Assembly: GCA_022562105.1 (NCBI GenBank)
Contig: JADFPW010000002.1
Span: 1-45,338 of the forward strand
Direction: 5' to 3'
Source: Planctomycetota bacterium
Lineage (GTDB): Bacteria > Planctomycetota > Phycisphaerae > UBA1845
Length of the DNA stretch: 45,338 nt
Under the pieces are notes generated by a model. The model searched no databases. It saw nothing but the letters and a program-made list of their open reading frames with translations, and was not told the DNA's origin. A program made the translations under genes and the position numbers. Of this stretch, positions 18,820 through 35,943 are shown piece by piece (the stretch's first letter is position 1; each line of letters starts with the position of its first letter).

Positions 18820-19830
18820 TCAGGTCGGTTCCGGCGCCCGCCCTTTGCAGCCGCAAGACTCCCGCACCACAAGCTCGGGATGCAGGCAGATCTGGGTCGG
18901 CTGGCGGGCGGGTTCGGCAATGCGTTGGCAGAGCAATCCTACGGCTTTGGCACCCAGGTCGAACATGGGCACGCGCACGGTGGTCAAAGCCGGCCGCACC
19001 ATACGGGAGATGCGGGTGTCGTCGAATCCCACGACCGCGAGGTCCTGCGGGACGGCGAGCCCGCTAGCCAGTGCCGCCGCAATGATGCCGGCGGCCATCT
19101 CGTCGTTTGCGGCAAAGACGCAGGCGCCGGCCCAGTCGCGAGCTCGTTGCAAGCCAAGGTCGAAGGCGGTGTCGTATTCGTAGTTGAGGAAGTGGATGTC
19201 GTCCGGCCCGACCGTCATGCCCTTCTCGCGCAACACCTGCCGATAGGCTTCCAGGCGGGCCGACGTGTCGAAGTTGGTGGCTAAACCGCCGACAAAGATC
19301 ACCCGTCGTACGTCGCAGTGGACCACCAGATGGCGCATCATGGCCATGGCCCCCTGGTGTTGGTCGATCACTACACTGTCATGCGGGGTGCCCTCGATGT
19401 CGTCGTCCAGAAGCACGTAGGGAATCGGGGAGTCCGCCAAAAGTGTCTGCACTCGATCGGTCATCTCCGAGACCATGATCGCCACTCCATCGAGCAGCGA
19501 TCTGAGGCGAGTCCCCGTCAGAAGCGATTGACTGTCGTTCCCATCTCGTGTGGAGGAGATGATCAGGCTGTATCCCAACTCCCTAGCCTGCGAGTTTGCC
19601 CCGCGAATGATCTCGGAGTAGAACTCGCCGTGGAGGTCCGGCAAGACCAGGCCCAGAATCTCGCTCCGCCGCAGCATCAGTCCGCGGGCGAAGGCGTTGG
19701 GCTGGTATCCCAGCTCTTGAATGGCTGATTCGACGCGGGCCAGGGTGGCTTTGTTGACCACCGCCCTCCGGTTGATCACCCGGGAAACGGTGCTCAAGGA
19801 GACCTTGGCCAACCGGGCGACGTCGGCCAT
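18820..19830 (-). CDS. LacI family transcriptional regulator
   Basis: MADVARLAKVSLSTVSRVINRRAVVNKATLARVESAIQELGYQPNAFARGL HTH; periplasmic-binding-like effector domain; FDDTRISRMVRPALTTVRVP. ORF extends to 20013; start could be upstream of 19830. Confidence 0.92.
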   Translation of the reverse strand: MADVARLAKVSLSTVSRVINRRAVVNKATLARVESAIQELGYQPNAFARGLMLRRSEILGLVLPDLHGEFYSEIIRGANSQARELGYSLIISSTRDGNDSQSLLTGTRLRSLLDGVAIMVSEMTDRVQTLLADSPIPYVLLDDDIEGTPHDSVVIDQHQGAMAMMRHLVVHCDVRRVIFVGGLATNFDTSARLEAYRQVLREKGMTVGPDDIHFLNYEYDTAFDLGLQRARDWAGACVFAANDEMAAGIIAAALASGLAVPQDLAVVGFDDTRISRMVRPALTTVRVPMFDLGAKAVGLLCQRIAEPARQPTQICLHPELVVRESCGCKGRAPEPT

Positions 19831-19892
19831 GGAAGGCGGCGAACCCGGGTGGCGCTGGGGCCGGCGATCTCGATTCTTGGTGGGCGTTTTCA

Positions 19893-21329
19893 ATGATGAG
19901 TACCTTGCGTCCGTCGAGGGCTGACAAGCTCCCTGCGCATCTCGGGTTTTTCGTGCTCGCCGTTGTCGCGGGGGCGGCGTCGGCCCAGCCTTCCGGACCC
20001 GCCGCGGTTCCAAAAGCCAGCCCAGCCGATCCCGCTTTCTATTCGTTCACCGATGCCGATCAGCGGCTGTTGGAAAGAGTCCAGTATGCCTGTTTCGAGT
20101 TCTTTTGGAAAGAAGTGGGGCAACCCGCCAGCCTGGCGAAAGACCGGCACAAGGGGCCAACGTCCAGCATCGCCGCAGTCGGATTCCAATTATCTTCCCT
20201 GCCGATCGGGGTTGAACACGGCTGGATCAAGCGTCACCAGGGCGTCAAGCGGGCCGAGACTGTCCTGGCCACCCTCTTGGGACGGCAGGACAACAAGAAG
20301 TTTGGCGTCTACCTCCACTTTCTCGATCTGAATACCGGCGGCCTGGGTCGCGAGGGCTACGAAGTCGTGGCCAGCACCGTCGATCATGCCCTACTGATGG
20401 CGGGGGTGATGACCGCAGGCGAGTACTTCGGCGGCCAGGTAGCCGAGCTGGGCAACCGCCTCGTGAACTCAACCAATTGGCGTGCTTTTGCCGTCGGGCC
20501 GAACGGGTATCTCTCCATGGGATGGAAGCCGGACGATGCCGAGCATCTCGATGGATCCGGTGAGTTCCTAAAATGGCATTGGTCCAACAGCAGCGACGAG
20601 GAGCGTCTGATCTACTTCCTGGCGTCCGGATCGCCGACGCCGGCTTATGCCATCGATCCCGAAATGTACTTTCGCCTACGGCGCACCATGAAGCACCACG
20701 ACGGCGGTCAGCCCTTCGCGGTGGCTTGGTCAGGCCCGCTGTTCAACTACTTCTTTAGCCACTGTTGGATCGACTTCCGTGCGCTGGGGCCTGATCATCC
20801 AAGCCGCTTTGGTGTGAACGCTCCCTCCATCGATTGGTTTGAGAACTCGCGTCGGGCGGTGCTCACCCATCGGCAGCGCTGCATCGAAGCGGCCGGCCGG
20901 TTTGGCACACTGTCAGCCGACCGGTGGGGGTTGAGTGCTTGTGTCGGCCGCGACGGGTATATCGTGCCGGGAACCCGGCCCAACCTGAGCGATCAGGATG
21001 AGTGGGGCGAAGGCACGGTGGCTCCCTACGCTGCTGCGTCGTCGATTATGTTCACGCCGAAGGAGAGCTTGGCTGCCATCCGGGCATTCATGGATCTGAA
21101 AGATGCCGCAGGTAAACCGCTAGTCTGGCGAGACCCCAAAGCGGGTGGATTTGGGTTTGCCGACGCATTCAACCTGGATCAGGGCTACGTGAGCGACGAC
21201 TATGTCGGCATCGACCAGGGACCTATGCTCCTGGCTATCGAGAATGCCCGGACGGGTCTCATCTGGAAGCTGTTCATGGAGCACCATGTCGCCCAGAGGG
21301 CGGTGAAACGCCTGAAATTGAAGCGGTGA
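19893..21329 (+). CDS. Secreted PF10091 glycoamylase-like / GH144-like protein (candidate endo-beta-1,2-glucanase)
   Basis: Signal-peptide-like N-terminus; FEFFWKEVGQPASLAKDR, SIAAVGFQLSSLPIGVEHGWI, STVDHALLMAGVMTAGEYF, WFENSRRAVLTHRQRCI, DRWGLSACVGRDGY. Confidence 0.75.
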   Translation: MMSTLRPSRADKLPAHLGFFVLAVVAGAASAQPSGPAAVPKASPADPAFYSFTDADQRLLERVQYACFEFFWKEVGQPASLAKDRHKGPTSSIAAVGFQLSSLPIGVEHGWIKRHQGVKRAETVLATLLGRQDNKKFGVYLHFLDLNTGGLGREGYEVVASTVDHALLMAGVMTAGEYFGGQVAELGNRLVNSTNWRAFAVGPNGYLSMGWKPDDAEHLDGSGEFLKWHWSNSSDEERLIYFLASGSPTPAYAIDPEMYFRLRRTMKHHDGGQPFAVAWSGPLFNYFFSHCWIDFRALGPDHPSRFGVNAPSIDWFENSRRAVLTHRQRCIEAAGRFGTLSADRWGLSACVGRDGYIVPGTRPNLSDQDEWGEGTVAPYAAASSIMFTPKESLAAIRAFMDLKDAAGKPLVWRDPKAGGFGFADAFNLDQGYVSDDYVGIDQGPMLLAIENARTGLIWKLFMEHHVAQRAVKRLKLKR

Positions 21330-21454
21330 CCATCCAAGAATGAGCGTGAGCTTTGGGCGCCCGGCAAGTTGGCGTCGCATGAGGGTTGCGATCCCCGTTA
21401 TCGGCCGAAAAACGCCAGTTCATTGACCCGACCGGACCAGCTGAGTACGCTGGA

Positions 21455-21468
21455 TGAAAGCGCTTGCA
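21455..21468. promoter_or_regulatory. LacI-family operator-like site upstream of GH94
   Basis: TGAAAGCGCTTGCA, identical to 30875-30888; fits TGNAANCGNTNNCA-type LacI/CcpA operator. Confidence 0.65.
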
Positions 21469-21521
21469 GCGGAGGGAGATACGGAGTCTCCGTCCAGAGG
21501 TCTGCTTTGGGAAGGACTGGA

Positions 21522-24023
21522 ATGACCGCGGTTGCACCGACCGTCACCGAACTGCCTCCGAAGGAAACGGCCCCCGTTGTGGTGGGGGAGTTCGGCCGAT
21601 TCTCGCCGGACGGCCGGGAGTTCTGGATCACCGACCCGCGGACTCCGCGCCCGTGGGCCAACATCATCGCCAACCCGCGCATGGGACTGGCAGTAAGTCA
21701 GACGGGCAGTGGCTTCACCTGGATCGACAATTCGCAACTAGCGGTCATTACCCGGTGGCAACAGGATCTAGCTTCTGATTCTTCCGGCAGGGCTATATAC
21801 GTTCGCGATCTGGATTCGCAGGAGTTGTGGTCGCTGGCACCGGCGCCGGTATGGCGGCCGGACGCCAAGCACGAATGTCGGCACGGTCTCGGCTACACAA
21901 CATTTATCACCGAAGTTGCGGGGATTCGCAGCGAATGGACGCTCTTCGTCCATGCCGACCAGACCGTCGAGCTGTGGCGAGTCGAGCTGCACAATCTGAC
22001 GGACCAAGCGCGACGATTGGAGTTATGCGGGTGCCTGGAGTGGAACTGCGGCGTCGCCCCCTCGCCCCGACGAGAGTTCCACAAGCTGTTCATCGAAACT
22101 GCCTTTGATCCAGAGCAACGGGCCGTCTTCGCATGGAACCACATGTGGGAGGTGTCTTCGGCTCGCGATGGGTACTGGAACGCGAGTTTCCCCTATGTGG
22201 CTGCGTTCGGGGCGACCGACCCGGTGTCGGCTGCACAGGGCGACAAGTCCGCATTCATCGGACGTTACGGTGATCGGCGAAGTCCGGAAGCTCTAACGCA
22301 AACGATTTGGGAACCGAGCTTCGGCCGGCATGACGACCCCATCGCGGCGTTGCGCGTCCCCATTGAGCTTCAGGGCGGACAGCAACGCGGGTTGGGGTTC
22401 GCGTTGGCTGTCGGTGAGTCGCGCGGGGAAGCCACAAGATTGCTGCAGAGCTGGAGCGGCGATGGAACGGAAGTTGCTCTTGATCGCATGAATGCGGCGC
22501 TGGATGAAGTTCGCGCGGGATGGCGGTCCCGTCTGGCCGACCATCGAATCGACACGCCGGAGCCGTCGCTTAACTTCCTGGTAAATGACTGGGTGCGCTA
22601 TCAAGCCGTTTCCAGCCGACTCTGGGGCCGTTGTGGGTACTATCAGCAGAGCGGGGCCTACGGATACCGGGATCAGCTACAGGATTCGCAGGTCTGGCTG
22701 ACCATCGATCCCCAGCAATGCCGTGAGCAAGTCAACCTCCACGCCGGCCGTCAGTTTGCGGACGGATCGGTCTACCACTGGTGGCACCCGCTAACCGAGC
22801 AGGGCCACGTCACCCGCATGACCGACGATCTGCTGTGGTTGGCGTTCGTCACCGCCAACTACATCAAAGAGACGGGCGACCTGAGCATCCTGAATGATGC
22901 GACACCGTTCTTGGATGATGCAGAGCGATATCCGCTTGTCGAACATGTATTGCGGGCGTTTCGTCGGGTTTTCGCCCGGACTAGCCCGCGTGGCTTGCCC
23001 TACATCGGGGCGGGCGATTGGAATGACGGGCTCAGTGCGGTCGGCCTGCAGGAGAGTGGCGAGTCAATCTGGCTAGGGCATTTTCTGGTAGGACTCTTGG
23101 CCGATTGGTCGGAGATCTTCCGCAGAGCGGCCGCTTCCGCGACCGATCCCGTGCCCGACGCGAGTCTGGAATGGCCCGGGTTGGCGGAGGAGTTTTCCGC
23201 GCGACGCCGGACGCTGATCGCTGCCGTCAACGAGCATGGCTGGGACGGCGAATGGTATCTCCGAGCCACGCTGGACGATGGCAGCAAGCTTGGCAGCAGG
23301 GACAACCGAGTCGGGCGGATCTTCTTGAACGCCCAGACGTGGGCCATTCTCAACGATGTCGCTCCTCCCGAACGGGCAGTCTCCTGCTGGAACTCGGTCA
23401 GGACGCATTTGATCAGCGACGCCGGAGCCTTGCTGCTGGCACCGGCGTTTGACACACCCGATGAACGTGTCGGCTACATCACGCGCTACGGTCCGGGGCT
23501 GCGCGAGAACGGCGGCGTCTACACACATGCCGCCACCTGGGCCATCGCGGCTGCATGCAAGATGAAGGACCACGAATCGGTGCGGCGATTGCTCACCGCC
23601 ATCAACCCTGCACTGAAAGATCCCGAGCGATTCTGGTCCGAGCCCTACGTGCTTCCCGGCAATGTAGACGGGCCAGACTCACCTCACTTCGGCCGCGGTG
23701 GTTGGAGCTGGTACACCGGCTCAGCCCAGTGGCTGCACCGAGTGGTGACCCAATGGGTGCTGGGCATACGGCCTGAGTGGGACGGTCTGCGGATCGATCC
23801 GTGTATGCCCCCCGGATGGAGGCGGGCACGGATGACTCGACCCTGGAGAGGCTGCAGTTACGAACTGACAATCGAGCGGGCCGACGGCCCCCGTGGCGAG
23901 GGAGGCGCTGCCGTCAGCTTGGACGGAAAGCTCCTGAGCGGCGACGTTCTGCCCTGCCCCGTCCGGACAGGCGAGCGCCACGATGTGCACATCCGGATCG
24001 ATCGGCCCACAGTTTCCTCATAG
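21522..24023 (+). CDS. GH94 phosphorylase resembling the C-terminal domain of cyclic beta-1,2-glucan synthase (candidate beta-1,2-oligoglucan or cellobiose-type phosphorylase)
   Basis: GRFSPDGREFWITDPRTPRPWANIIANPRMGLAVSQTGSGFTWIDNS; YGYRDQLQDSQVWL; WWHPLTEQGHVTRMTDDLLWLAF; GAGDWNDGLSAVG; GGVYTHAATWAIAAA; start ATG 21522 within ORF 21369.. Confidence 0.88.
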   Translation: MTAVAPTVTELPPKETAPVVVGEFGRFSPDGREFWITDPRTPRPWANIIANPRMGLAVSQTGSGFTWIDNSQLAVITRWQQDLASDSSGRAIYVRDLDSQELWSLAPAPVWRPDAKHECRHGLGYTTFITEVAGIRSEWTLFVHADQTVELWRVELHNLTDQARRLELCGCLEWNCGVAPSPRREFHKLFIETAFDPEQRAVFAWNHMWEVSSARDGYWNASFPYVAAFGATDPVSAAQGDKSAFIGRYGDRRSPEALTQTIWEPSFGRHDDPIAALRVPIELQGGQQRGLGFALAVGESRGEATRLLQSWSGDGTEVALDRMNAALDEVRAGWRSRLADHRIDTPEPSLNFLVNDWVRYQAVSSRLWGRCGYYQQSGAYGYRDQLQDSQVWLTIDPQQCREQVNLHAGRQFADGSVYHWWHPLTEQGHVTRMTDDLLWLAFVTANYIKETGDLSILNDATPFLDDAERYPLVEHVLRAFRRVFARTSPRGLPYIGAGDWNDGLSAVGLQESGESIWLGHFLVGLLADWSEIFRRAAASATDPVPDASLEWPGLAEEFSARRRTLIAAVNEHGWDGEWYLRATLDDGSKLGSRDNRVGRIFLNAQTWAILNDVAPPERAVSCWNSVRTHLISDAGALLLAPAFDTPDERVGYITRYGPGLRENGGVYTHAATWAIAAACKMKDHESVRRLLTAINPALKDPERFWSEPYVLPGNVDGPDSPHFGRGGWSWYTGSAQWLHRVVTQWVLGIRPEWDGLRIDPCMPPGWRRARMTRPWRGCSYELTIERADGPRGEGGAAVSLDGKLLSGDVLPCPVRTGERHDVHIRIDRPTVSS

Positions 24024-24050: not shown

Positions 24051-24911
24051 TCAACCCTTCATACCCGTCGTGGCGATGCCGCGGATAAACGTCCGCTGGG
24101 TCAGCAAGAACAACAACAAGACGGGAAGAATGATCATCACCGACGCGGCCATCATTTGGTTCCACGGTGTGTCGCCGGCGCGGTTCTGCAACGTTTGCAA
24201 CCCAAGGGCGAGCGTAAACTGTTCCTGGTGGGTCAGATACACCAGCGGGCCGACCAAATCGTTCCACACCGCCAGGCAATGAAACAGGGCGACAACCGCC
24301 AGAGCAGGTGTGGACAGCGGCAGTATGATCCTCCAGAAACATGCCCAGCGCGAGCAGCCGTCCAGCGTGGCGGATTCCTCCAGATCCCGTGGAATTCCCA
24401 TGAAGAATTGCCGCAACAGAAAGATACTGAATGCATTGCCGAACCACGCCGGTACCCAAAGTGGCTTGTAGGTGCCGATCCAATCCAGGTGACTGAAGAT
24501 CATGTAGCTGGGAACCATGATCACGGGGAAAGGGACCATCATGGTGGCCAGGCAGATGGCGAACATCACCCCGCGCCCGCGAAACCGAATCCGAGCAAAA
24601 CCATACGCGGCGATCGAGCATGAAATCAGAACGCCGGGAAGACTGAGCACGAGAATGATGAGCGTATTACGGGCATACAGCAGGAAATCGAAGTGCTCTG
24701 ATCGAACGAGATCCCGATATGCGGTTAGCTGCGGCCGATGCGGGAGGATGTCGGGAGAGAGAACTTCCTCCGGCGCTTTCAAACTAACGCTCGCCATCCA
24801 AACCAGCGGCGTCAGAAACAGCAACGCAAAGAAGCACAGAACCAGATAAGAGAGCGGTCGGCGGAGGGGACCGGCGGGTGCAACAGGCAGACGATCTTCT
24901 GTGGCCATCAC
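24051..24911 (-). CDS. CUT1-type carbohydrate ABC transporter permease (MalG-like)
   Basis: EESATLDGCSRWACFWRIILPLSTPALA EAA-loop motif; multiple TM segments. Confidence 0.92.
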   Translation of the reverse strand: MMATEDRLPVAPAGPLRRPLSYLVLCFFALLFLTPLVWMASVSLKAPEEVLSPDILPHRPQLTAYRDLVRSEHFDFLLYARNTLIILVLSLPGVLISCSIAAYGFARIRFRGRGVMFAICLATMMVPFPVIMVPSYMIFSHLDWIGTYKPLWVPAWFGNAFSIFLLRQFFMGIPRDLEESATLDGCSRWACFWRIILPLSTPALAVVALFHCLAVWNDLVGPLVYLTHQEQFTLALGLQTLQNRAGDTPWNQMMAASVMIILPVLLLFLLTQRTFIRGIATTGMKG

Positions 24912-24912
24912 T

Positions 24913-25797
24913 TCAAGCCCCCCGATAGTAGACCATTCGCCGGCTGACCCAAAACAACAGCGCGGTCAGCGCCAGGATGATCAGCAACTGGATCCAGGCC
25001 ATGGCGCTGGCGTAGCCCATTTTCAGATAGCGAAAGGCGTTGTCGAAGATGTAGCTGGTGTAGAAGTAGATCGTGCCGTCCGGACCTGGGCGCATGCGCC
25101 ACATGACATATGGCAGGGCAAAGATCTGCCACGCCCCGATGATGGCGACGATGGTGTTGAAGAGGATGACCGGGCTCAACCCGGGCAAGGTGACATGCCA
25201 GAACTGCCGCGGCGGTGAGGCGCCGTCCAGCCGGGCCGCTTCGTAAAGCTCTTCGGGAATTCCTTGTAGTCCGGCCAGATAGATCACCATCGGTGAGCCG
25301 ACGAACCAGAGACTGACCAGGACCAACGACAACATGGCCCACGGCGAGGAGTCCAGCCACTTCGGGTCGGGCAAACCCACCGTTCGCAGGATCCGATTCA
25401 CCAAGCCGAACTCCGGGTTCAGCATCCACATCCACAAGACGCCCGCGGTGACCAGTGGCACGATGGTGGGCACAAAGATGCAGGCACGAAAAATCGCGAT
25501 GCCTCGGACCCGGCGATTCAGCAACACGGCCAGCCCGATCGCAGCGATGGCCCCGAGTGGAATTGATAGACCGGCGTAGATCAGCGTGTTGGCGATCACT
25601 TTGTGGTACACCGGATCATGCAGCAGGGCGGTGTAGTTCTCCGCCCCGACGAACACCGGCGGCTGAAGCATCGGATAGTCGCAAAAGCTGATGTAAAGCG
25701 AAAAGCCCATCGGGATGACCAGGAACGCGAGGAAGCCCAGCCACCACGGCGCGGTCCAGAGCAGACCGGCCAACAGAGTGGACTTATGGGAGCTCAT
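24913..25797 (-). CDS. CUT1-type carbohydrate ABC transporter permease (MalF-like)
   Basis: PEELYEAARLDGASPPRQFWHVTLPGLSPVILF EAA-loop motif; multiple TM segments. Confidence 0.92.
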   Translation of the reverse strand: MSSHKSTLLAGLLWTAPWWLGFLAFLVIPMGFSLYISFCDYPMLQPPVFVGAENYTALLHDPVYHKVIANTLIYAGLSIPLGAIAAIGLAVLLNRRVRGIAIFRACIFVPTIVPLVTAGVLWMWMLNPEFGLVNRILRTVGLPDPKWLDSSPWAMLSLVLVSLWFVGSPMVIYLAGLQGIPEELYEAARLDGASPPRQFWHVTLPGLSPVILFNTIVAIIGAWQIFALPYVMWRMRPGPDGTIYFYTSYIFDNAFRYLKMGYASAMAWIQLLIILALTALLFWVSRRMVYYRGA

Positions 25798-27182
25798 TCG
25801 GCGGATTCTCCCGCGTGTCGACGATCGCTCATGCGCTGGTATTCGTCGATCAGTTGGTCTACCCGCTTCTGGGTAGCTCGGACGGTTTCATCCGCATCGC
25901 GCTGGCCTCGAAGAACGGTCTCCAGCATGCCCAGGGTCTCGGTCCACGTGTTCGCCCACGTGGGCATCGCGGGGTAGCCAAAGGCGTGCTCCGAGCCGGC
26001 CATCTCGTCAAAGACCCGGACATAGGGGTTCTTGTGGTTTTCATAGAACCCGGGAAGCGGCGTGCGGAAGGGTGATACCTTGCCGTGCAGGCTACATAAC
26101 TCCTCCAATACCTGCTGCCGGGACACATACTTCAAGAAGATCATGGCCTCGCGGACATGGCGCGAGCCGCGCGGTATGACGAAGTTATCCGTACTGGCGA
26201 AATAGTGGGGCTTCTCCAGCGTGATCGAGGGGAAGGGAGCCACGGCGTAGTCCAACGACGGGGCGTACGTTTGAATCCAGTTGCTGAGCCACGGCCCCTG
26301 AAAGACCATCGCAAGCCGTTCGCTCAGAAACGGATTCTGCGCTCCCTCGATGGCTCCAGCGGTGGCCTCGAAGGACAGGACGTCATCGTTGGCTCGCCGT
26401 GGATCAATCTCCGCCGCGGCTAAACCGACCGAACCCAAAGCGACGCGTTGGTTACGAACCCAGCGCATGGCGGCCAGACCTTCCGGTGTGTCGACGCGAA
26501 AACGATCACCGTCCCAAAGTTGGGCATCGAAGAACACCGGCCAAATCCAGTGCCACCAGCCGAGCATGGCCGGCGACACGGTAAACCCAAGCTGCACGAT
26601 CTTTCCGGTGGATGGATCGCGCCGGGTCAGAAGCTTGGCGTACTCATCCAATTCTGTAATGGTCTGCGGCGGGCGATCGGGATCCAGACCCGCCTCGCGA
26701 AAGAGCCGCCGGTTGTAGAACAGGGCGATCGTGTAGGGCGTACTGGGCAGGGCGTAGAGGCGACCCTCGTACCGGCCGATCTCCAGCCATACCGGCTTGA
26801 ATACACCCACATCGATTTCATATTCCTTGCACAGCTCGTCCAGCGGCAACAGGGCCTCACGGTCGGCGAACTGGGGCACGATATGGTCGAACAATCCCGC
26901 AATATCCGGAGGATCGCCGCCGGCTGTGGCGATGAGCAAGCGTTGATCGACGTTGGCCACGGCTTGGTAGTCGACCCAGATGTTCTGGGCAGCGCCGAGC
27001 GTTTCGTTGAATCGGTCTACGATCCGCTGCATGGCTTGGCCTTCGACGCCGGTCCATTTCTCCCAATAACGCACCACGGTTCGGTCGGGGGGAATATCGA
27101 GTTGCCTGCGAGGACCGAGAGATAAAAGCAGCAGCGCAGGAAAGCCGAGGACAGCGGCGAGAACGATCGAGCGAAGGTTCAT
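25794..27182 (-). CDS. ABC transporter extracellular sugar-binding protein (family 1)
   Basis: VVRYWEKWTGVEGQAMQRIVDRFNE; ALPSTPYTIALFYNRRLFREAGLDPDRPPQTITELDEYAKLLT; 4-bp overlap with permease gene. Confidence 0.9.
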   Translation of the reverse strand: MNLRSIVLAAVLGFPALLLLSLGPRRQLDIPPDRTVVRYWEKWTGVEGQAMQRIVDRFNETLGAAQNIWVDYQAVANVDQRLLIATAGGDPPDIAGLFDHIVPQFADREALLPLDELCKEYEIDVGVFKPVWLEIGRYEGRLYALPSTPYTIALFYNRRLFREAGLDPDRPPQTITELDEYAKLLTRRDPSTGKIVQLGFTVSPAMLGWWHWIWPVFFDAQLWDGDRFRVDTPEGLAAMRWVRNQRVALGSVGLAAAEIDPRRANDDVLSFEATAGAIEGAQNPFLSERLAMVFQGPWLSNWIQTYAPSLDYAVAPFPSITLEKPHYFASTDNFVIPRGSRHVREAMIFLKYVSRQQVLEELCSLHGKVSPFRTPLPGFYENHKNPYVRVFDEMAGSEHAFGYPAMPTWANTWTETLGMLETVLRGQRDADETVRATQKRVDQLIDEYQRMSDRRHAGESAE

Positions 27183-27282: not shown

Positions 27283-29292
27283 TCATCCGCCACAATCCGG
27301 ATCAGCCGGCGTTCCCGGCCCGCTGCTTTCCAGGCAATCCGTAAAATCGGGCAGGTCCAGGGCATCGATGCGATGATCACCGGTGCGATCGAAGCAGAGG
27401 CAAGCCTCCGGTACATCACCGGACGCAGACGTGCAGAGTTGCCACCCACCGAAGTCCAGCAGATCAACGTCGCCATCGCCGTCCGCGTCCGCGAAGGGGG
27501 TGGCGCAGTCGCATGCATCGCCGATCCCGTCACCGTTGCCGTCCTCCTGGCGGCGGTTCCACGTTTGGGGGCAGTTGTCATAGGTGTCGGCAATTCCGTC
27601 GTGGTCCGCGTCCGCCTGGAAGGGGAACCGCTGCAAAAAAAACTGCGGCTCGAGGCTCTCCACCAATCCGAACATCAGGAACAGATGGTCGACCAGCGCC
27701 GTGTCGTTGGGGATCCAATCCGGATCGAGGGACGACACTCGAGTCAAGCCGTAGCGAAAACGCGAATCGCTGTCGACCGGTTGGTCCTCCTCGAACTCCA
27801 GCAGGGTATCGACATCGCCCCAGGCGGCCACCGCCTCCGGTGAATAGACGTGTGAATGATCGTAGATTCGATCTGCCCTGTAACCGGAGGGAATCACACC
27901 GGCGGTAAGCCCGTATCGATAGGTGAGCCCAAGATCGGCGGCGCAGTACAGGGCGTCGGCTTGACGTTGGTTATGAAAGAACGATTCGAAGTCGGGGTGG
28001 CCGGCAAAGTCGATGCTGAAGAAGTGTTGTTGATGCACCCAAAACGCCGGAGCAAACGCGGCTGCGTTGTCCGTCAGCGTGGGGATCTCACGATACTCGA
28101 TTGTAGGCAGCGCGGCCGGGTCCAGCCAGAATCCCGCGATCGCTTCCGCCGGGGCGTTGTCCGCCTGGCGCAATGCCAGGCTGACGATCAGGGCGTATTC
28201 GTTCCATGGCACGACCGAGCCGAAGAGCTCGCCGCCGTTCTCGTCTGAGGCCACGTAGACTCGACCGTCCAAGCTGGAGTGGATGGCGGCGTTGAAATCC
28301 GTGGTCGTGTACATCTCGTCGGCGATGGCGGCAATCGTAGCGTTTTCGATGAAGTGGTTCTTGGCGAACAAGGCGCCGCCGACCAGAAGGGCCGATCCAA
28401 TGGTCGTATACTCGTCTGGCCAATTCGCGGCGTGTTCGCCCGTGTAGGGATTATTCCAGTGCCACCAATGGCCCACAGCGTTTCGATCGGGAAACCCGCC
28501 GTCAATCTGCGAGTTGTAGGCCGTGAGAATGAACTCCACCCGGGCTTCCGCGTCAGTCAGCAAAGCAAGGCGGTCGGCAGCGCAAAGACCGATGAGGGCG
28601 AACCCGGCCGCATCAGGCGTGGCCGGATGAAACGGCGGGTCGTCCGAGAGCACCAGACCATCGCGCACCAGACCGCTCGCTTCCATGGCATCGGCTAGAT
28701 AGCTCGTGGTGCGCTCCAGTTGATCCCACCGCAGCGTGTCCAGATCGGCGCTGGGTTCGGTGCGGGTCAGCACCCAACGATTCCATTGAATCCCCGGCAG
28801 TTCGCCCTCCCCCACATCCACGCCGGCGCCTTGAATGCGAATCCAATTGGACTGGTTAGGGTTGAGCCGATCGAGCGGTATGGTGGCCACCAGAACGCGG
28901 GCACTGTCCAGAAACTCGCTGTGCACCTGCACCAGATCTTCCTGCGACGGTCCGGCGAGAACGGCGACGTCGAACTCCTGCGTGAAGTGAGCGGTGACTA
29001 CCATCCGGAACCGGTAGTGCAACGCCGTGGTCGGTACGTCATCCGGAAGAAAGAACTCGATGTCTATCGTGTCGCCCTGCCAACCCATCTCGCCGGGCCA
29101 CGGCGAGGTCACGCCCACCGTTCCGGTGAAGCCATCGTAGTAGGTCAACGACCAGGGCGGATCGGCGAAGTCGGTGATCTCAAAGATGGTGGCCGCGGAT
29201 AGCCGTGGAGCGAGGAAGGCGACACCCGACAGGGCCGCTACTGCAGCGGTGGTGTTCATCCTCGTACGGATACCCATGATTCTCACCTGCAA
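27283..29292 (-). CDS. Secreted divergent GH144/PF10091-like protein with C-terminal TSP3-like and dockerin-like region
   Basis: EYTTIGSALLVGGALFAKNHF, WNEYALIVSLALR, FWVHQQHFFSIDFAGHPDFESFFHNQRQADALYCA align with the 19893..21329 product; tail DADHDGIADTYDNCP...DADGDGDVDLLDFGGWQLC...FDRTGDHRIDALDLPDF. Start may be an internal ATG (29277 or 29259). Confidence 0.68.
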   Translation of the reverse strand: MQVRIMGIRTRMNTTAAVAALSGVAFLAPRLSAATIFEITDFADPPWSLTYYDGFTGTVGVTSPWPGEMGWQGDTIDIEFFLPDDVPTTALHYRFRMVVTAHFTQEFDVAVLAGPSQEDLVQVHSEFLDSARVLVATIPLDRLNPNQSNWIRIQGAGVDVGEGELPGIQWNRWVLTRTEPSADLDTLRWDQLERTTSYLADAMEASGLVRDGLVLSDDPPFHPATPDAAGFALIGLCAADRLALLTDAEARVEFILTAYNSQIDGGFPDRNAVGHWWHWNNPYTGEHAANWPDEYTTIGSALLVGGALFAKNHFIENATIAAIADEMYTTTDFNAAIHSSLDGRVYVASDENGGELFGSVVPWNEYALIVSLALRQADNAPAEAIAGFWLDPAALPTIEYREIPTLTDNAAAFAPAFWVHQQHFFSIDFAGHPDFESFFHNQRQADALYCAADLGLTYRYGLTAGVIPSGYRADRIYDHSHVYSPEAVAAWGDVDTLLEFEEDQPVDSDSRFRYGLTRVSSLDPDWIPNDTALVDHLFLMFGLVESLEPQFFLQRFPFQADADHDGIADTYDNCPQTWNRRQEDGNGDGIGDACDCATPFADADGDGDVDLLDFGGWQLCTSASGDVPEACLCFDRTGDHRIDALDLPDFTDCLESSGPGTPADPDCGG

Positions 29293-30737
29293 CGACTCGT
29301 GGCCACCGGCCCTGGCGCGGGCAGCCCGGGTGCCACTGGTGGCTTGTCCACCAGTGCCGCGGGCAGGCGGCCCATCGCAATGAGGTCAGCATACCATAAT
29401 CCGCTGGCTTTGATGGTCCGCTGTAACGTCGTGCGGTCGCATCGCACCAGACCGAAGCGTTTGGAATAGCCCTCAGTCCACTCCAGATTGTCCAGCAGAG
29501 ACCACACGAAGTAGCCGCGGACATCGACCCCGTCCGCTACTGCTTCAGCCATGGCGGCCACGTGGCCGGCGAGGTATCCGATGCGATCCTGGTCATCGAC
29601 GAACCCGTGCTCGTCGGCGTTATCCGGGCAAGCCGCTCCGTTTTCCGTGATGTAGACGGGTAGGCCTGCGTAACGCTGGTGCAGCCGGCGCAGGAGACGC
29701 GCCAGGCCGTCCGGCATGATGGGCCAACCCATCTCCGTGCACGGCAGGTGCCCGGGGACGATCCGGTCAAACTCGAACGGTTGACTGTCCTGCGAGTATC
29801 GGGCGATGTCGCTGGTGTAGTAGTTGAGGGCCAGGAAATCCATCGAGCGACGCAGCAGGTCGGCGTCCTCCGCCGAGAATTCAGGCAGCATCGGGCCGAG
29901 TCGTTCCCGCATCACCGCCGGATAGTCACCAGACCACGCCGGATCGGCGAACCAACCGCCGAAAGTATCCATGGCCCGTTCGGCTGCGGCCTGGTCGGAA
30001 GCGCTCCGCGATTCCGGAAAACTGAACGTCGTGTTTAGAGCGAAGCTGATGCGACCGCCGTCGCATTGGTGCCCGCGATAGCACGCTACCGCATAGGCGT
30101 GGGCGCGCATCAAGTTGTGGCCCGCCTGGTATCCTTCGGCGGGGTTCTTGATTCCGGGCGGATGGGTGCCGCGGAAATACCCCGCGTCCACGACGACCCA
30201 GGGTTCGTTCAGGGTGAGCCAGAAACGAACGCGATCGCCCAGTTTGTTGAACATGAGGTCGGCATAATCGGCGAACAGGTTGGGCAGATCCGAGTGGAGC
30301 CAACCGTTCATGTGCCGTTGTAGAGCGGCCGGCAGATCCCAATGATAGAGGGTAACAAACGGCTCGATCCCGGCTTCGAGCAGTGCATCTACCAGCCGGT
30401 CGTAAAACGCCAGCCCGGGCGCGCTCACCTGGCCACGTCCCTCGGGCATGACGCGTGGCCAACTGATGCTGAAGCGGTAGGCTTGAAGGTGCAGCCGCCG
30501 CATGATCTCGATGTCTTCGCGGTAGCGGTGGTAGTGATCGCAGGCAATCTCGCCGGTATCACCACCGCGAGTTGCCCCCGGCGTGGCGCAGAACTCGTCC
30601 CAGATGCTCGGCCCGCGGCCATCGATGGTGGTAGCTCCTTCGATTTGGTAGGCCGCGGTGGCCGCCCCCCACAGAAAGCCGGGCGGGAAGCGTCGACTGG
30701 ACGGGGCAGTTTCGGGCGATTTCTCGTCGATCGACAT
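29283..30737 (-). CDS. GH1 beta-glucosidase
   Basis: FLWGAATAAYQIEGATTIDGRGPSIWDEF; FSISWPRVMPEGRGQ; WLTLNEPWVVVDAGY; VYITENGAAC; FVWSLLDNLEWTEGYSKRFGLV. Confidence 0.96.
   Translation of the reverse strand: MSIDEKSPETAPSSRRFPPGFLWGAATAAYQIEGATTIDGRGPSIWDEFCATPGATRGGDTGEIACDHYHRYREDIEIMRRLHLQAYRFSISWPRVMPEGRGQVSAPGLAFYDRLVDALLEAGIEPFVTLYHWDLPAALQRHMNGWLHSDLPNLFADYADLMFNKLGDRVRFWLTLNEPWVVVDAGYFRGTHPPGIKNPAEGYQAGHNLMRAHAYAVACYRGHQCDGGRISFALNTTFSFPESRSASDQAAAERAMDTFGGWFADPAWSGDYPAVMRERLGPMLPEFSAEDADLLRRSMDFLALNYYTSDIARYSQDSQPFEFDRIVPGHLPCTEMGWPIMPDGLARLLRRLHQRYAGLPVYITENGAACPDNADEHGFVDDQDRIGYLAGHVAAMAEAVADGVDVRGYFVWSLLDNLEWTEGYSKRFGLVRCDRTTLQRTIKASGLWYADLIAMGRLPAALVDKPPVAPGLPAPGPVATSRCR
29330..29357. 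repeat. Palindromic repeat copy lying in-frame in the 3' end of the GH1 gene
   Basis: GTGCCACTGGTGGCTTGTCCACCAGTGC; encodes ALVDKPPVAP in the GH1 C-terminus. Confidence 0.93.
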
Positions 30738-30874
30738 GCTCGCGCGGTCCTCCCGCCAGGCTCCGCCCGGCGTAGCTCCTGCCGTAACCTATTGTATGGC
30801 AATGCGTTACGTCACCGGCTGGCAGGCCTTGGATTCTCGCCTAGCCTGCCAACCCATAAAAGCCTAGCCGTCAT

Positions 30875-30888
30875 TGAAAGCGCTTGCA
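30875..30888. promoter_or_regulatory. LacI-family operator-like site between divergent GH1 and PEP-CTERM genes
   Basis: TGAAAGCGCTTGCA, 14/14 identical to 21455-21468. Confidence 0.65.
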
Positions 30889-31019
30889 ACCCTCTTGCGT
30901 GCGTAGTACAATCCCGGAAGCATTATGGCCGAGGGAGAGCGAGGGCAAGCCGGCACTGTACCGGTTGACAAGAGAGGCGCGTGGTCATCGCCATGCGCTT
31001 GGCTAAGGAGGAGACCACG

Positions 31020-31853
31020 ATGTTACGGGAAAGATTTAGGCTCGGGTCGATGGCTTTGCCCACCATCGGCGTTTGTTTGGCCGGATTCGTCGCCAGCGCC
31101 TCGGCCGGCTTCATTGACAGTGCGATCATCACCACAGGCGTTTTCAACGACGATTCCGATTCGGTGGTGACCACCGTGAATCTCTACCCCGCGCTGATCA
31201 GCATCAACGACTCGATGCTTGACGGCGACGGAGTAGGCAGCGAGTTCGCCAACCGCCACAACTTCCGCTTGTCGTCGAACGGTGGGATCAGCTCACATGT
31301 ATTCAGCAACGATACGGGTTTCGAGTTCTATTCCGATGTGACCATCACCGGCACGGCGAATTCGGAAGGCGGCCTGAACTTGTCGCCGTGGTGGTCGCAG
31401 GAGGTGGACGGCGTGTTCATGCTCAACGCGGGATCGGGCGAGGTGGCCGTCTTCGGCGGGCGCCTGCCCTTTTATAGCTTCACCGGCGAGTTTGGCATAA
31501 ACTACACGAAGGGTTCGACCGTTTCGGTGGGCATGATCTACGAGCCGAACAGCCTGTCGGAGTCGGATCCCGCCACGATCCAGTACACGTACGAGGATGA
31601 CATGGGCAGCTTCATGAGCGCGCTCCTGTCGTTTGATGAGGGAAACCCGGGCGAGGATCCCCCATACGGGCTGTGGGGCATGCTCAACGATGCACGACTG
31701 GGCGGGTACTTTCAGGCTCAGATCGACGTCGGTAATCCGGACAACTTTGGTGAGATTCAATTCACGGACATGAGTTTCATCCCAGAGCCCGCTGCCGTGG
31801 CTTTGTTAGGCCTGGGTGGAATGGTGTTGCTGAGACGGTCCAGGCGACAGTAG
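31020..31853 (+). CDS. Secreted PEP-CTERM sorting-signal protein
   Basis: Strong SD (aaggagga) before ATG 31020; signal peptide; C-terminus PEPAAVALLGLGGMVLLRRSRRQ. Confidence 0.85.
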   Translation: MLRERFRLGSMALPTIGVCLAGFVASASAGFIDSAIITTGVFNDDSDSVVTTVNLYPALISINDSMLDGDGVGSEFANRHNFRLSSNGGISSHVFSNDTGFEFYSDVTITGTANSEGGLNLSPWWSQEVDGVFMLNAGSGEVAVFGGRLPFYSFTGEFGINYTKGSTVSVGMIYEPNSLSESDPATIQYTYEDDMGSFMSALLSFDEGNPGEDPPYGLWGMLNDARLGGYFQAQIDVGNPDNFGEIQFTDMSFIPEPAAVALLGLGGMVLLRRSRRQ

Positions 31854-31991: not shown

Positions 31992-32825
31992 ATGAAACGG
32001 ACTCTACCCTTCGCGAGATCCTCGGGTTTCACGCTCATCGAACTGCTGGTCGTGGTTTCCATCATTGCCCTGCTGATCGCCATTCTTCTTCCGTCGTTGA
32101 AGAAGGCCCGCGATCAAGGCAAGACGACTGTCTGTTTGTCGAATCTTCACCAGCTGGCTCTGACGACCACGTACTACACCGAGAACACCAACGGTCGTTT
32201 GCCCTACATTCTCGGATCACCGGATCCCGGCAACGATGGACAGCCCACCAAGGCGCCGTTTTACCAGTACCATCAATTGTTCAACTTTTGGCCCTTTCTA
32301 AAGAATCTCAAGGCGTTCCAATGCCCCTCCGCTCTGGGCGACAACAGCGTGAAAGCCTACACCAACGACGGCAACAACAGTTACTATACGGTGTTCAAAT
32401 CGGACGAACTGTACCTGGAAGCCTATGAGCAGCGCTGGTGGCCGAACATCGACCCATACGACTATGCGGGCGATACGATCGACCCTCTATACACGGAATA
32501 TTGGTTCAACGATTGGAGCTGGAGCGCCAGCAGCGGCGGTAACCCCATTCCGCAAATCAGCGGAGGCCTCATCAGCAAGATTCCGCTTCCGAACCTGGCG
32601 GTCATCATGTGCGATGCTGTGTGGGAGACTGTCAAACCGCGCCATAGCCGCGGCAACAACTTCGCCTTCCTGGATGCCCATGTCGAGCGGGTTTCCCCGC
32701 GGGCACGCTATCTGGATGATCGCGGAGAGGTGAACTACGACTCGAAGACGGACAAGGATCCGTTTGGTAACCGGCCGTTCTATGCCTGGGGCCTGACTCG
32801 TGACGGTTTCAATGCGGCGCCCTAA
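31992..32825 (+). CDS. Prepilin-type N-terminal methylation domain protein (pseudopilin, H-X9-DG family-like)
   Basis: [51 protein letters not shown]. Confidence 0.92.
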
Positions 32826-32874: not shown

Positions 32875-34662
32875 ATGACACGATCGACTCTAGCGGTGAC
32901 GCTCTTGGCGATGCACTTTTTCTTGCCGGGCGCTTTATGGGCGCGGGTGAGCCTGGTCAAGAACGGTAGCATGGAAGCCGGCGAGGGAGCAGGAGCGATC
33001 GACCCGCAGGTCGCGGATGAGTGGACCGAGTTTGGCATCAACGTCGAACGGTCCGACACTGTGAATATGATTCCGGAAGGATCGGGGCACGCGCTCAAGG
33101 CGTTCGGCGACGGCGACAGCTCCACCAGCGGAGCGTTCCAGGAAGTCGCCGACATCTCCCCGGACCAGAACGTCACCGTTTCTGTTCACCTGTACACGCC
33201 CGACTTCGACAAGCTGGGCGGCAGCGGCCAGGCTGGACTTGTCGTCGAGTTCCTGGACTTCTTCGGCTCCACCCTCGCGTCGGAGGAGCTGTATGTCCTG
33301 GATGACTCATCGCCGGCCAACACGTGGATTCCCGCGGTGATCGGTCCGACGGCAGCTCCATCGAGCACGACGAAGATCCGCGTGACCTGCAAGCTCCAAT
33401 GGGTACCGGGTGATGTCTTCGGGGCGGCGTACTGGGACGACGTGCAGGTCGCCGCCGACGGCAGCGAAAACCTGGTAGTCAACGGCGATTTCGAGACGGC
33501 CGGTACCAGTACCGGGCAAAGCAGCGTGGGCATCGATGACTGGGTCGGGTTCGGTGATCAGGAAAAGTCTGATGACGTGGCGTTGGATGGATCCGCCAGC
33601 CTGAAGCTGGGCAGTAATGAGCCGTTTTCCGGCTTGTTCCAGAGTTTGGGCGTGCTCAACGAGGGCGATCATATCTTCATGCAGGCCTATGTGTGGAATC
33701 CGTCGGAGGATCCGCTGACCGACAGTTCGCTCGCCGGTATCAAGCTGGAATTCGACGCCAACGCAGATGTTCCACCCGCCGAAGAGAACCTCCCCTTCAA
33801 TGAGGATTCGCCGCAGGACGAGTGGACGCTTGTCGAGCTGAATACGGTGGTGCCCGACGACGTTACCGTCGCCCGAATCGTCTGCATCTACACGGGCGAT
33901 GCTTCGACCAGCGGCGAGGTGCACTTCGACTCGATGTTTGCCGAGCGGGACAGCTTTCCCGGGACCAATCAACTGTTGAACAGCAGTTTCGAGGCCGGCC
34001 CCGGCGGGCCGAACGGCCTCACCGATTGGACGGAGTTCAATACCACCGGGGTGTCCCAAGCGCAGAAGAGCTGCTTCTCCGTGCCGGCAGACGATGGAGT
34101 GTGCACCATGAAAGCCACTGGGCAGGAAGTGGCGGGGATTTTCCAGGAGATCACTGTGTCGCCGGGCGAGGGTCTCAGCATCAGCGGCTACCTGTACAGC
34201 CCGGCTTCTGGCCCGTTGACCGGCCCGGGGCTTGCTGGCTTGAAGGTCGAATGGGCCGTCGGCGGCGTTCCGGGAGACATCGATATCGGCGGATCCGACA
34301 ACACCATCGACGCGTCCGCCCCCGTCGATACGTGGATTCCGATCTTCATCGACTACACCATGCCGGAGGGTAGCAGCGCGCTGGGACGGTTCACCAACAT
34401 TATCGCAAGGGACACCGCGCCAAGCGGGACGGTCTACTTCGACTCGTGCGAGGCCGTGGTACTGAATCGCTTCGACGGCGCCGATGGCGACAACGACGGC
34501 GACGAAGATCTGCGCGACTTCGGCGCCTTTCAACGCTGCTTCACCGGAAGTGACGCCGACATGTTGCCCTTCAACTGCATCGTGTTCGATTCGGATGACG
34601 ACGGCAACGTGGACCTGACCGATTACGGTTTCTTCGCCGATCACGTCACCGGTCCGAATTAG
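32875..34662 (+). CDS. Secreted protein with three tandem CBM-like beta-sandwich repeats and C-terminal dockerin-like region
   Basis: LVKNGSMEAG / LVVNGDFETAG / LLNSSFEAGPG repeats; tail DGDNDGDEDLRDFGAFQRCF...FDSDDDGNVDLTDYGFFADHV. Confidence 0.78.
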   Translation: MTRSTLAVTLLAMHFFLPGALWARVSLVKNGSMEAGEGAGAIDPQVADEWTEFGINVERSDTVNMIPEGSGHALKAFGDGDSSTSGAFQEVADISPDQNVTVSVHLYTPDFDKLGGSGQAGLVVEFLDFFGSTLASEELYVLDDSSPANTWIPAVIGPTAAPSSTTKIRVTCKLQWVPGDVFGAAYWDDVQVAADGSENLVVNGDFETAGTSTGQSSVGIDDWVGFGDQEKSDDVALDGSASLKLGSNEPFSGLFQSLGVLNEGDHIFMQAYVWNPSEDPLTDSSLAGIKLEFDANADVPPAEENLPFNEDSPQDEWTLVELNTVVPDDVTVARIVCIYTGDASTSGEVHFDSMFAERDSFPGTNQLLNSSFEAGPGGPNGLTDWTEFNTTGVSQAQKSCFSVPADDGVCTMKATGQEVAGIFQEITVSPGEGLSISGYLYSPASGPLTGPGLAGLKVEWAVGGVPGDIDIGGSDNTIDASAPVDTWIPIFIDYTMPEGSSALGRFTNIIARDTAPSGTVYFDSCEAVVLNRFDGADGDNDGDEDLRDFGAFQRCFTGSDADMLPFNCIVFDSDDDGNVDLTDYGFFADHVTGPN

Positions 34663-35177: not shown

Positions 35178-35559
35178 GAGCCTATCCCAAAACCTTTCGC
35201 TGAGTTATGCGTATGATAATACATGATGTTGAAACTCACGGACGAACAATTGGATTGGCTTGTGGAACGGATTCCCCAACCTCGTCGGAGCCCGAAGGGT
35301 GGTCGCCCGCCGGCGGATCCGAGGAAAGTAATGGGGGGGGTATCTTCTGGATCCTGGACAATGGGGCCAAGTGGGAGGAGTTGCCCAAGCGTTTCGGATC
35401 CAAGAGCACGGTTCATCGATGGTTCCAGCGATCGGTGAACGACGGCCTACTGGAGGCGATCATGCGGGACGCTGGGCGCTGCGTCGAGGAGCGTGACGGC
35501 TATCGCCTGTACGAGTGCTTCATCCACGGCACGTTGGCCAAGGCTCGCGGCGGCGGTGG
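35178..35559 (+). mobile_element. 5' remnant of an IS5-family-like insertion sequence (frameshifted, 3' truncated)
   Basis: Probable left end GAGCCTATCCCAAAACC; LTDEQLDWLVERIPQPRRSPKGGRPPADPRKVMGG then -1 frame GGIFWILDNGAKWEELPKRFGSKSTVHRWFQRS...[18 protein letters not shown]. Confidence 0.72.
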
Positions 35560-35749
35560 TCTTGGCCAACCCGGGCACGCCCTCGATCAGGGCGTGCCCA
35601 TTGCTCAACAACCTGATGAGCATCTTGTGAAGCAGGTCGTCCTGCCCGAGGATCACCCGATGCATCTGCTCGAGGAGCTTGCGGAACGGCTCACTCTTGA
35701 GCTTCACCTCTTCGGCGATCTGCTTGACATCCAACTGGGTGGCCCCCAT
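35556..35749 (-). pseudogene. Truncated MoxR-family AAA+ ATPase (N-terminal fragment only)
   Basis: [65 protein letters not shown], ends at Walker A where the IS remnant begins. Confidence 0.75.
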
Positions 35750-35943
35750 TCAGTTGCGCCTGAAACCATCGAAACGGCAGCTTAATAGCATCCCCCCGGG
35801 ATAGACGCAACACGTTCGTCGTTCCTGTCGACGGCGACAAAAGCGGACCGTGGGCAGCGACCACCCACGACCGCTGATGGAGGATGCTTGTCGCCACGCC
35901 GGATCACGTCACCGGCCGTCGGTTGATGAACCACACGGTTGGA

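Follow-up and report, generated by a model that had tools for sequence, protein, structure and literature searches.

The window analyzed here is a 45,338-nucleotide stretch of the genome of a Planctomycetota bacterium (Phycisphaerae; contig JADFPW010000002.1 of GenBank assembly GCA_022562105.1). Its central part holds genes for a predicted sugar regulator, glucan-degrading enzymes and an ABC importer, together with a plus-strand triad of surface protein genes that diverges from the GH1 gene. The features used below are as follows.

18823-19830, minus strand: LacI-family regulator, predicted operator binder (PF00356 and Peripla_BP_3 above cut-off)
19893-21329, plus strand: GH144 endo-beta-1,2-glucanase-like protein (PF10091; XcSGL, 8xul, E=5.3e-42)
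21454-21469, plus strand: predicted second operator, ATGAAAGCGCTTGCAG, 52 bp before the GH94 ATG; symmetric TGAAAGCGCTTTCA, or one change from it, in relatives
21522-24023, plus strand: GH94 phosphorylase (PF17167/PF06165)
24051-24911, minus strand: ABC sugar permease (PF00528)
24913-25797, minus strand: ABC sugar permease (PF00528)
25794-27182, minus strand: ABC sugar-binding protein (PF01547; Lin1841, a sophorooligosaccharide binder, among weaker matches, 1.7e-12)
27283-29277, minus strand: secreted GH194-like beta-1,2-glucanase with an EF-hand/TSP3 C-terminus (PgSGL3, 8xuk, E=3.7e-25, residues 202-544)
29283-30737, minus strand: GH1 beta-glucosidase, first gene of the minus-strand unit (PF00232, 5e-163; TIGR03356 above cut-off)
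30861-30866, minus strand: -10-like TAGGCT of the putative GH1 promoter, 17-bp spacer, weak here (3/6); at least 4/6 in 17/22 orthologous sites
30874-30889, plus strand: predicted LacI-family operator, TTGAAAGCGCTTGCAA; exact consensus match, conserved in orthologous loci
30884-30889, no strand: TTGCAA, self-complementary operator half-site and proposed common -35, with -10-like hexamers 17 bp away on both sides and an independent promoter-like match
30907-30912, plus strand: -10-like TACAAT of the putative PEP-CTERM promoter, 17-bp spacer; at least 4/6 in 20/22 orthologous sites
31020-31853, plus strand: PEP-CTERM surface protein of an unannotated family, predicted lectin-like jelly roll (TIGR02595; AlphaFold2 pLDDT 89.8; ConA-like matches)
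31992-32825, plus strand: pilin-like protein with a prepilin N-terminus (PF07963); orthologs follow the PEP-CTERM gene in relatives
32875-34662, plus strand: secreted protein with a dockerin/EF-hand tail and weak CBM_4_9-like repeats, third gene of the conserved triad

Two clan GH-S endo-beta-1,2-glucanases, the GH144 protein and the GH194-like protein, are recognized by sequence at the locus, the latter through PgSGL3, the founding representative of GH194 (PMC12102758). GH94 and GH1 enzymes are present as well, with putative activity on sophorooligosaccharides. Because of the GH144-like and GH194-like matches, and because a GH1 enzyme with activity on beta-1,2-oligosaccharides has been described beside an ABC importer (PMC12369401), we hold with good confidence that beta-1,2-glucan is the best-supported substrate, the linkage specificity of GH94 and GH1 being putative. 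The combination of a GH94 or GH1/GH3 enzyme with an ABC importer is shared with the sophorooligosaccharide clusters lin1839-1841 of Listeria innocua and SGR_2423-2427 of Streptomyces griseus, the latter of which also has a beta-1,2-glucanase (PMC12369401). Unlike those clusters, the planctomycete locus combines a pair of clan GH-S enzymes with a surface triad, which appears to be coupled to them by an operator.

A palindromic site between divergent gene units

The sequence at 30874-30889, TTGAAAGCGCTTGCAA, agrees with the LacI-family consensus TTGNAANCGNTTNCAA at zero mismatches and is an even palindrome with a central CG upstream of its presumed target genes, as in local LacI regulons. The GH1 ATG (30737) is 136 bp away and the PEP-CTERM ATG (31020) 130 bp away. 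An earlier note on this DNA had placed an identical 14-mer at 30875-30888, about 137 bp and 131 bp from the respective start codons, and was right on both counts: this 14-bp core, TGAAAGCGCTTGCA, has just two exact copies in the 4.19-Mb assembly, at 30875-30888 and 21455-21468. Repetition of the 14-mer was rejected as stand-alone evidence because the window holds 91 repeated 14-mers. What argues for an operator is that the site matches the consensus, lies where promoters would be and is conserved. The consensus was matched in 0/100 shuffled windows and twice exactly in the whole genome, at this operator and at C240:2955; the ORFs at C240:2955, and those at a further site with one mismatch on C425, included no evident glucan genes. 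The listed GH94 ORF start at 21369 was set aside in favor of the ATG at 21522 as the likely start, since the GH94 domains begin well downstream of 21369 and a Shine-Dalgarno-like GGAAGG precedes 21522. The second copy therefore lies about 52 bp upstream of GH94, and is not intragenic as in the ORF list.

The earlier note had proposed that one site could co-control the catabolic genes and the cell-surface triad, a reading that depends on conservation of the site in related genomes. A first set of 20 relatives of the same order with a LacI ortholog (mostly Phycisphaerae, Planctomycetota) had their loci fetched and scanned. The site was found in fixed orientation upstream of 18/18 PEP-CTERM orthologs, at 102-184 bp, and of 18/18 GH1 orthologs with complete upstream DNA, at 75-251 bp. 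Six genomes with the PEP-CTERM gene were found later, and five of these have the site; the sixth (G029) has a decayed site, a fragment only of GH1 and no detectable LacI ortholog. More than 20 genomes of related planctomycetes, drawn from about 20 genera in at least two families, thus keep the site with its position and orientation fixed, and the order GH1, site, PEP-CTERM gene, pilin-like gene and dockerin-tailed protein gene is retained down to 30% PEP-CTERM identity. A chance palindrome without function would fit a 14-mer repeat that, taken alone, is not unusual in the window; this conservation refutes such a reading, to which we give practically no weight.

Loci in which the two units have come apart bear on which genes the site serves. 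In one genome (G059, L100) the surface unit has its own site and no adjacent GH1, and in another (G087) the surface half (L110) and the catabolic half (L109) are found on different contigs, with one site each. It could be argued that the LacI operator serves the GH1 operon only and that the PEP-CTERM triad is a passive neighbor, since LacI operators usually serve catabolic genes and the adjacency of GH1 and PEP-CTERM genes could be hitchhiking. The persistence of the site upstream of surface genes that lack GH1 (G059 L100; G087 L110), and a -10-like hexamer that is better conserved on the PEP-CTERM side than on the GH1 side (see below), make this explanation highly improbable. In G106, two tandem operators 20 bp apart (L140, 1350 and 1370) occupy the gap between GH1 and the PEP-CTERM gene, each seemingly serving one direction.

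A regulator with a LacI HTH and a sugar-binding domain is encoded at the locus itself, 11 kb from the operator at 30874-30889; the assembly has just one other LacI HTH gene, on contig C172. The HTH and hinge residues of the regulator are conserved in 20 orthologs (55-70% identity). Operator and regulator co-occur across genomes: exact copies of TGAAAGCGCTTKCA are present in 16/21 LacI-positive vs 2/45 LacI-negative genomes (Fisher p=3e-9), the exceptions being G025 and G007 (the latter 78% complete), where the site is present and a LacI ortholog was not detected. In G053 and G063 the LacI gene is far from the GH1/PEP-CTERM locus, and the regulator would therefore act in trans.

The closest solved chains to the regulator are CcpA proteins, which it resembles in the HTH and hinge; its score against the NCBIfam ccpA model TIGR01481 is 210 bits, below the equivalog cut-off of 442. 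The cre operators of CcpA are of the TGNAANCGNTTNCA type, and the symmetric operator TGAAAGCGCTTTCA fits the cre consensus. The site might accordingly be read by another LacI-family protein or a global CcpA-like regulator, or the regulator might activate instead of repress. The resemblance to CcpA, the second LacI gene on C172 and the two genomes that have the site without the window-type LacI (G025, G007) are in line with a different reader. Exact sites are few per genome and most lie at glucan genes, however, which together with the low ccpA score sets this system apart from CcpA/cre as one with a local role; moreover, presence of the site tracks the window's LacI, and a site placed over the -35 fits repression. 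We regard this group of alternatives as improbable. It is very likely, as judged from sequence comparison, that both units are co-controlled by the LacI protein of the window or a close paralogue.

Promoter-like elements around the operator

When orthologous loci were aligned on the site, the most conserved columns outside the operator were two -10-like hexamers, one per side, each 17 bp from TTGCAA. Across the first 17 divergent loci, hexamers at offset 17 agreed with TATAAT on average at 4.35/6 positions on the PEP-CTERM side (z 14 against a null of 1.15) and at 3.76/6 on the GH1 side (z 11 against a null of 1.18), z values that overstate certainty because related genomes are not independent; no other offset approached these matches. 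With spacers of 16-18 bp allowed, a hexamer matching at least 4/6 was present in 20/22 loci on the PEP-CTERM side and 17/22 on the GH1 side (about 4% by chance), and a TGn extended -10 was enriched both ways (9/22 and 11/22 loci). Since the offset rule came from the first set, its only fresh test is the five later genomes, in all of which -10-like hexamers occur at 16-17 bp in both directions with 3 to 5 of 6 positions matching. The arrangement TTGCAA-17-TACAAT was also returned by an independent consensus scan of the window, for which about 1.5 matches are expected by chance. The PEP-CTERM-side hexamer is the better conserved of the two; the GH1-side hexamer is absent from G090 and gone (TGCGCC) in G059, which has no GH1 upstream. 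Placement of the GH1-promoter -35 in the other operator half was considered and rejected, as there is no -10 peak 16-18 bp from that half.

These positions suggest that the divergent promoters probably use one common -35 inside the operator, in which case a single repressor dimer would shut both. A base that the operator consensus leaves free is G, which gives TTGCAA, at 22/22 divergent sites vs 2/16 GH94 sites (p=1e-8), a bias that repressor binding alone does not explain. Alternatively, the operator could co-control both units while each promoter works independently via an extended -10, with TTGCAA kept only as a repressor half-site. TTGCAA agrees with just 4/6 of the -35 consensus, and TGn precedes the -10 in 9/22 and 11/22 loci; because an extended -10, present in many of these promoters, can render a -35 dispensable, use of a shared -35 is something we infer rather than observe. 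The 17-bp spacing in both directions and the G at the free base speak against independent promoters, which we consider possible yet unlikely. The proposal of the earlier note that a single site governs the catabolic genes and the surface triad gains support from the conservation of the site, from the separate sites retained on each side where the halves have split (G087, L109 and L110) and from promoter-like elements in both directions.

A common -35 would differ from the bidirectional promoters described by Warman et al., which share a -10 and have starts about 10-23 bp apart, and whose control has been little studied (PMC12825309). Both arrangements place one short symmetric element at the service of two directions, with polymerase binding that is, or here would be, mutually exclusive. 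At the planctomycete locus, TTGCAA has a -10-like hexamer 17 bp away on either flank, so that the -35 would be shared, the starts, predicted near 30919 (+) and 30854 (-), would be about 65 bp apart and the pair would be under a repressor. No described case of a shared -35 element was found in the literature searched (open-licence papers), and a shared -35 inside an operator would be new, as far as the open literature shows. Its interest lies in offering a naturally conserved promoter pair that seemingly shares a -35 under repressor control, vs the shared -10 of the recently described cases (PMC12825309).

Other promoters seem to accommodate the same repressor site differently. Inspection by eye shows that the GH94 gene of relatives has a -10-like sequence followed by the symmetric operator TGAAAGCGCTTTCA or a one-change version of it, and that in the gap between LacI and GH144 of relatives the operator starts with TTGACA, which is the consensus -35, and a -10-like hexamer follows after 17 bp. 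Since the divergent, GH94 and LacI/GH144 sites differ in the arrangement of -35 and -10, the site appears to have been fitted into three different promoter layouts. Several of the LacI/GH144 gaps in relatives (L037 6269, L040 9350, L042 6909, L044 3706) resemble TTGACA-17-TATGCT in the GH144 direction, overlapped by a -10-like sequence in the LacI direction, and by eye are possibly bidirectional promoters of the shared -10 type. The corresponding gap of the window (19831-19893) holds a degenerate half-site only, TGGTGGGCGTTTTCAA, with 3 mismatches, where relatives have TTGACAGCGCTTTCAA and a consensus -35; autoregulation of LacI may have been lost in this genome.

Further operator copies in relatives are located at GH3 genes, sugar-transporter genes, a PF10091 enzyme and a secreted F5/8C-domain protein. 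Copies upstream of GH3 or an MFS_2 sugar transporter occur in genus g5 genomes and G059 (L119 4693-6963, L118 8819-11104, L100 3827-5302), and no relatives of the ABC importer were seen in the fetched stretches of these genomes. Secreted F5/8C-domain proteins of 1060-1100 aa are encoded behind the same operator at L109 (6191-9373) and L113 (6521-9823). In G087 such a protein replaces the PEP-CTERM gene opposite GH1, with an operator copy divergent to GH1.

Surface proteins and a model of control

The first protein of the triad scores 20.2 against the PEP-CTERM model TIGR02595 (cut-off 16) and just below the cut-off of Pfam PF07589, and the alignment of its orthologs displays VPEP-helix-RR, which corresponds to a PEP motif, a membrane helix and a basic C-terminal tail. 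No Pfam domain was found in it besides this sorting tail, and comparison of the family sequence with the PDB gave nothing convincing, so that the predicted fold alone was informative. Its AlphaFold2 model is a confident beta-sandwich (pLDDT 89.8), the best PDB matches of which are PL7 alginate lyases and legume lectins, at modest TM-scores of about 0.35-0.45. The protein may bind or cleave glucan at the cell surface. The dockerin-tailed partner (Doc620) has weak CBM_4_9-like repeats, with CBM_4_9 matched at 1.5e-5 in the ortholog at L105.

A survey of the PEP-CTERM protein family yielded 51 loci, 35 of them outside the 16 recognized as already sampled. Among these 35 further loci, which include Phycisphaerae, Krumholzibacteriota, Eisenbacteria, Gemmatimonadota, Latescibacterota and others, a GH144, GH94 or GH1 gene lies within about 6 kb of the PEP-CTERM relative in 32 and a GH144 gene is found just upstream on the same strand in 24. 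Several other genomes of the class Phycisphaerae have the family gene between GH144 and GH94, with a LacI gene near and a cre-like site upstream. A link between these envelope proteins and glucan use, the remaining claim of the earlier note, is therefore well supported even without the operator, given the glucan enzymes beside relatives in 32/35 further loci. Judging by the open literature, the association of this lectin-like family with beta-1,2-glucan enzymes in several phyla is a new finding. It provides a functional context for a surface-protein family that has no library name beyond its sorting tail, and leads to the prediction that the family acts on beta-1,2-glucan in several poorly studied phyla. 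Relatives in Krumholzibacteriota, Eisenbacteria and similar MAGs (L164, L168, L176-L199) are without PEP-CTERM and often have a shared tail like SWGxVKSLFR, perhaps another sorting signal.

Our model of control is built from what can be read in the DNA (site, regulator, conservation, co-occurrence, -10 positions and gene content), and from these we infer LacI binding, repression, shared use of the -35, polymerase competition, start sites, inducer and substrate. When no inducer is present, one LacI dimer at 30874-30889 would cover the single TTGCAA that serves as -35 of both units, so that the minus-strand unit (GH1, GH194-like and ABC importer genes) and the plus-strand unit (PEP-CTERM, pilin-like and dockerin-tailed protein genes) would be blocked together, while the second operator would block the phosphorylase gene downstream of it. 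A glucan-derived sugar, probably a sophorooligosaccharide or its product, would release the repressor. RNA polymerase would then engage the common -35 facing either way, a single polymerase at any moment, and derepression would yield the importer and hydrolases on one side and the surface proteins on the other. We think it quite probable that this model, in which a local LacI repressor and a shared -35 let a glucan-derived sugar gate both units and GH94, holds as a whole. We lean more narrowly toward a broader reading, in which an operator with one self-complementary -35 lets one protein gate, and one polymerase at a time choose between, glucan degradation and display of a new lectin-like family that captures glucan at the surface, the unit being conserved in planctomycetes and the family being linked with these enzymes in other phyla. 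One sugar-sensing switch would then probably turn on both the machinery for eating beta-1,2-glucan and a lectin-like surface protein that had no earlier annotation.

Divergent targets are a familiar feature of LacI regulons (PMC4052901), and the locus resembles the local LacI-family sugar regulons of Ravcheev et al. 2014 in several respects: an even palindrome with a central CG, a site 30-140 bp upstream, a regulator beside the regulated enzymes and transporter, and divergent operons under one site. A search of that study for Planctomycetes turned up no mention of them (PMC4052901). The planctomycete regulon differs from those described there in including PEP-CTERM, pilin-like and dockerin-tailed surface proteins, and in an operator that carries an apparent -35 common to both directions.

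Two further features of the window were observed. An IS4/5-type transposase fragment (DUF4096, 35207-35785) lies directly after the surface triad and may mark where the locus ends. Four near-identical copies of a palindromic stretch, GCCACCAGTGGCAC, are present (27201, 29330, 41421 and 41561), two of them near gene ends within the GH1 unit.
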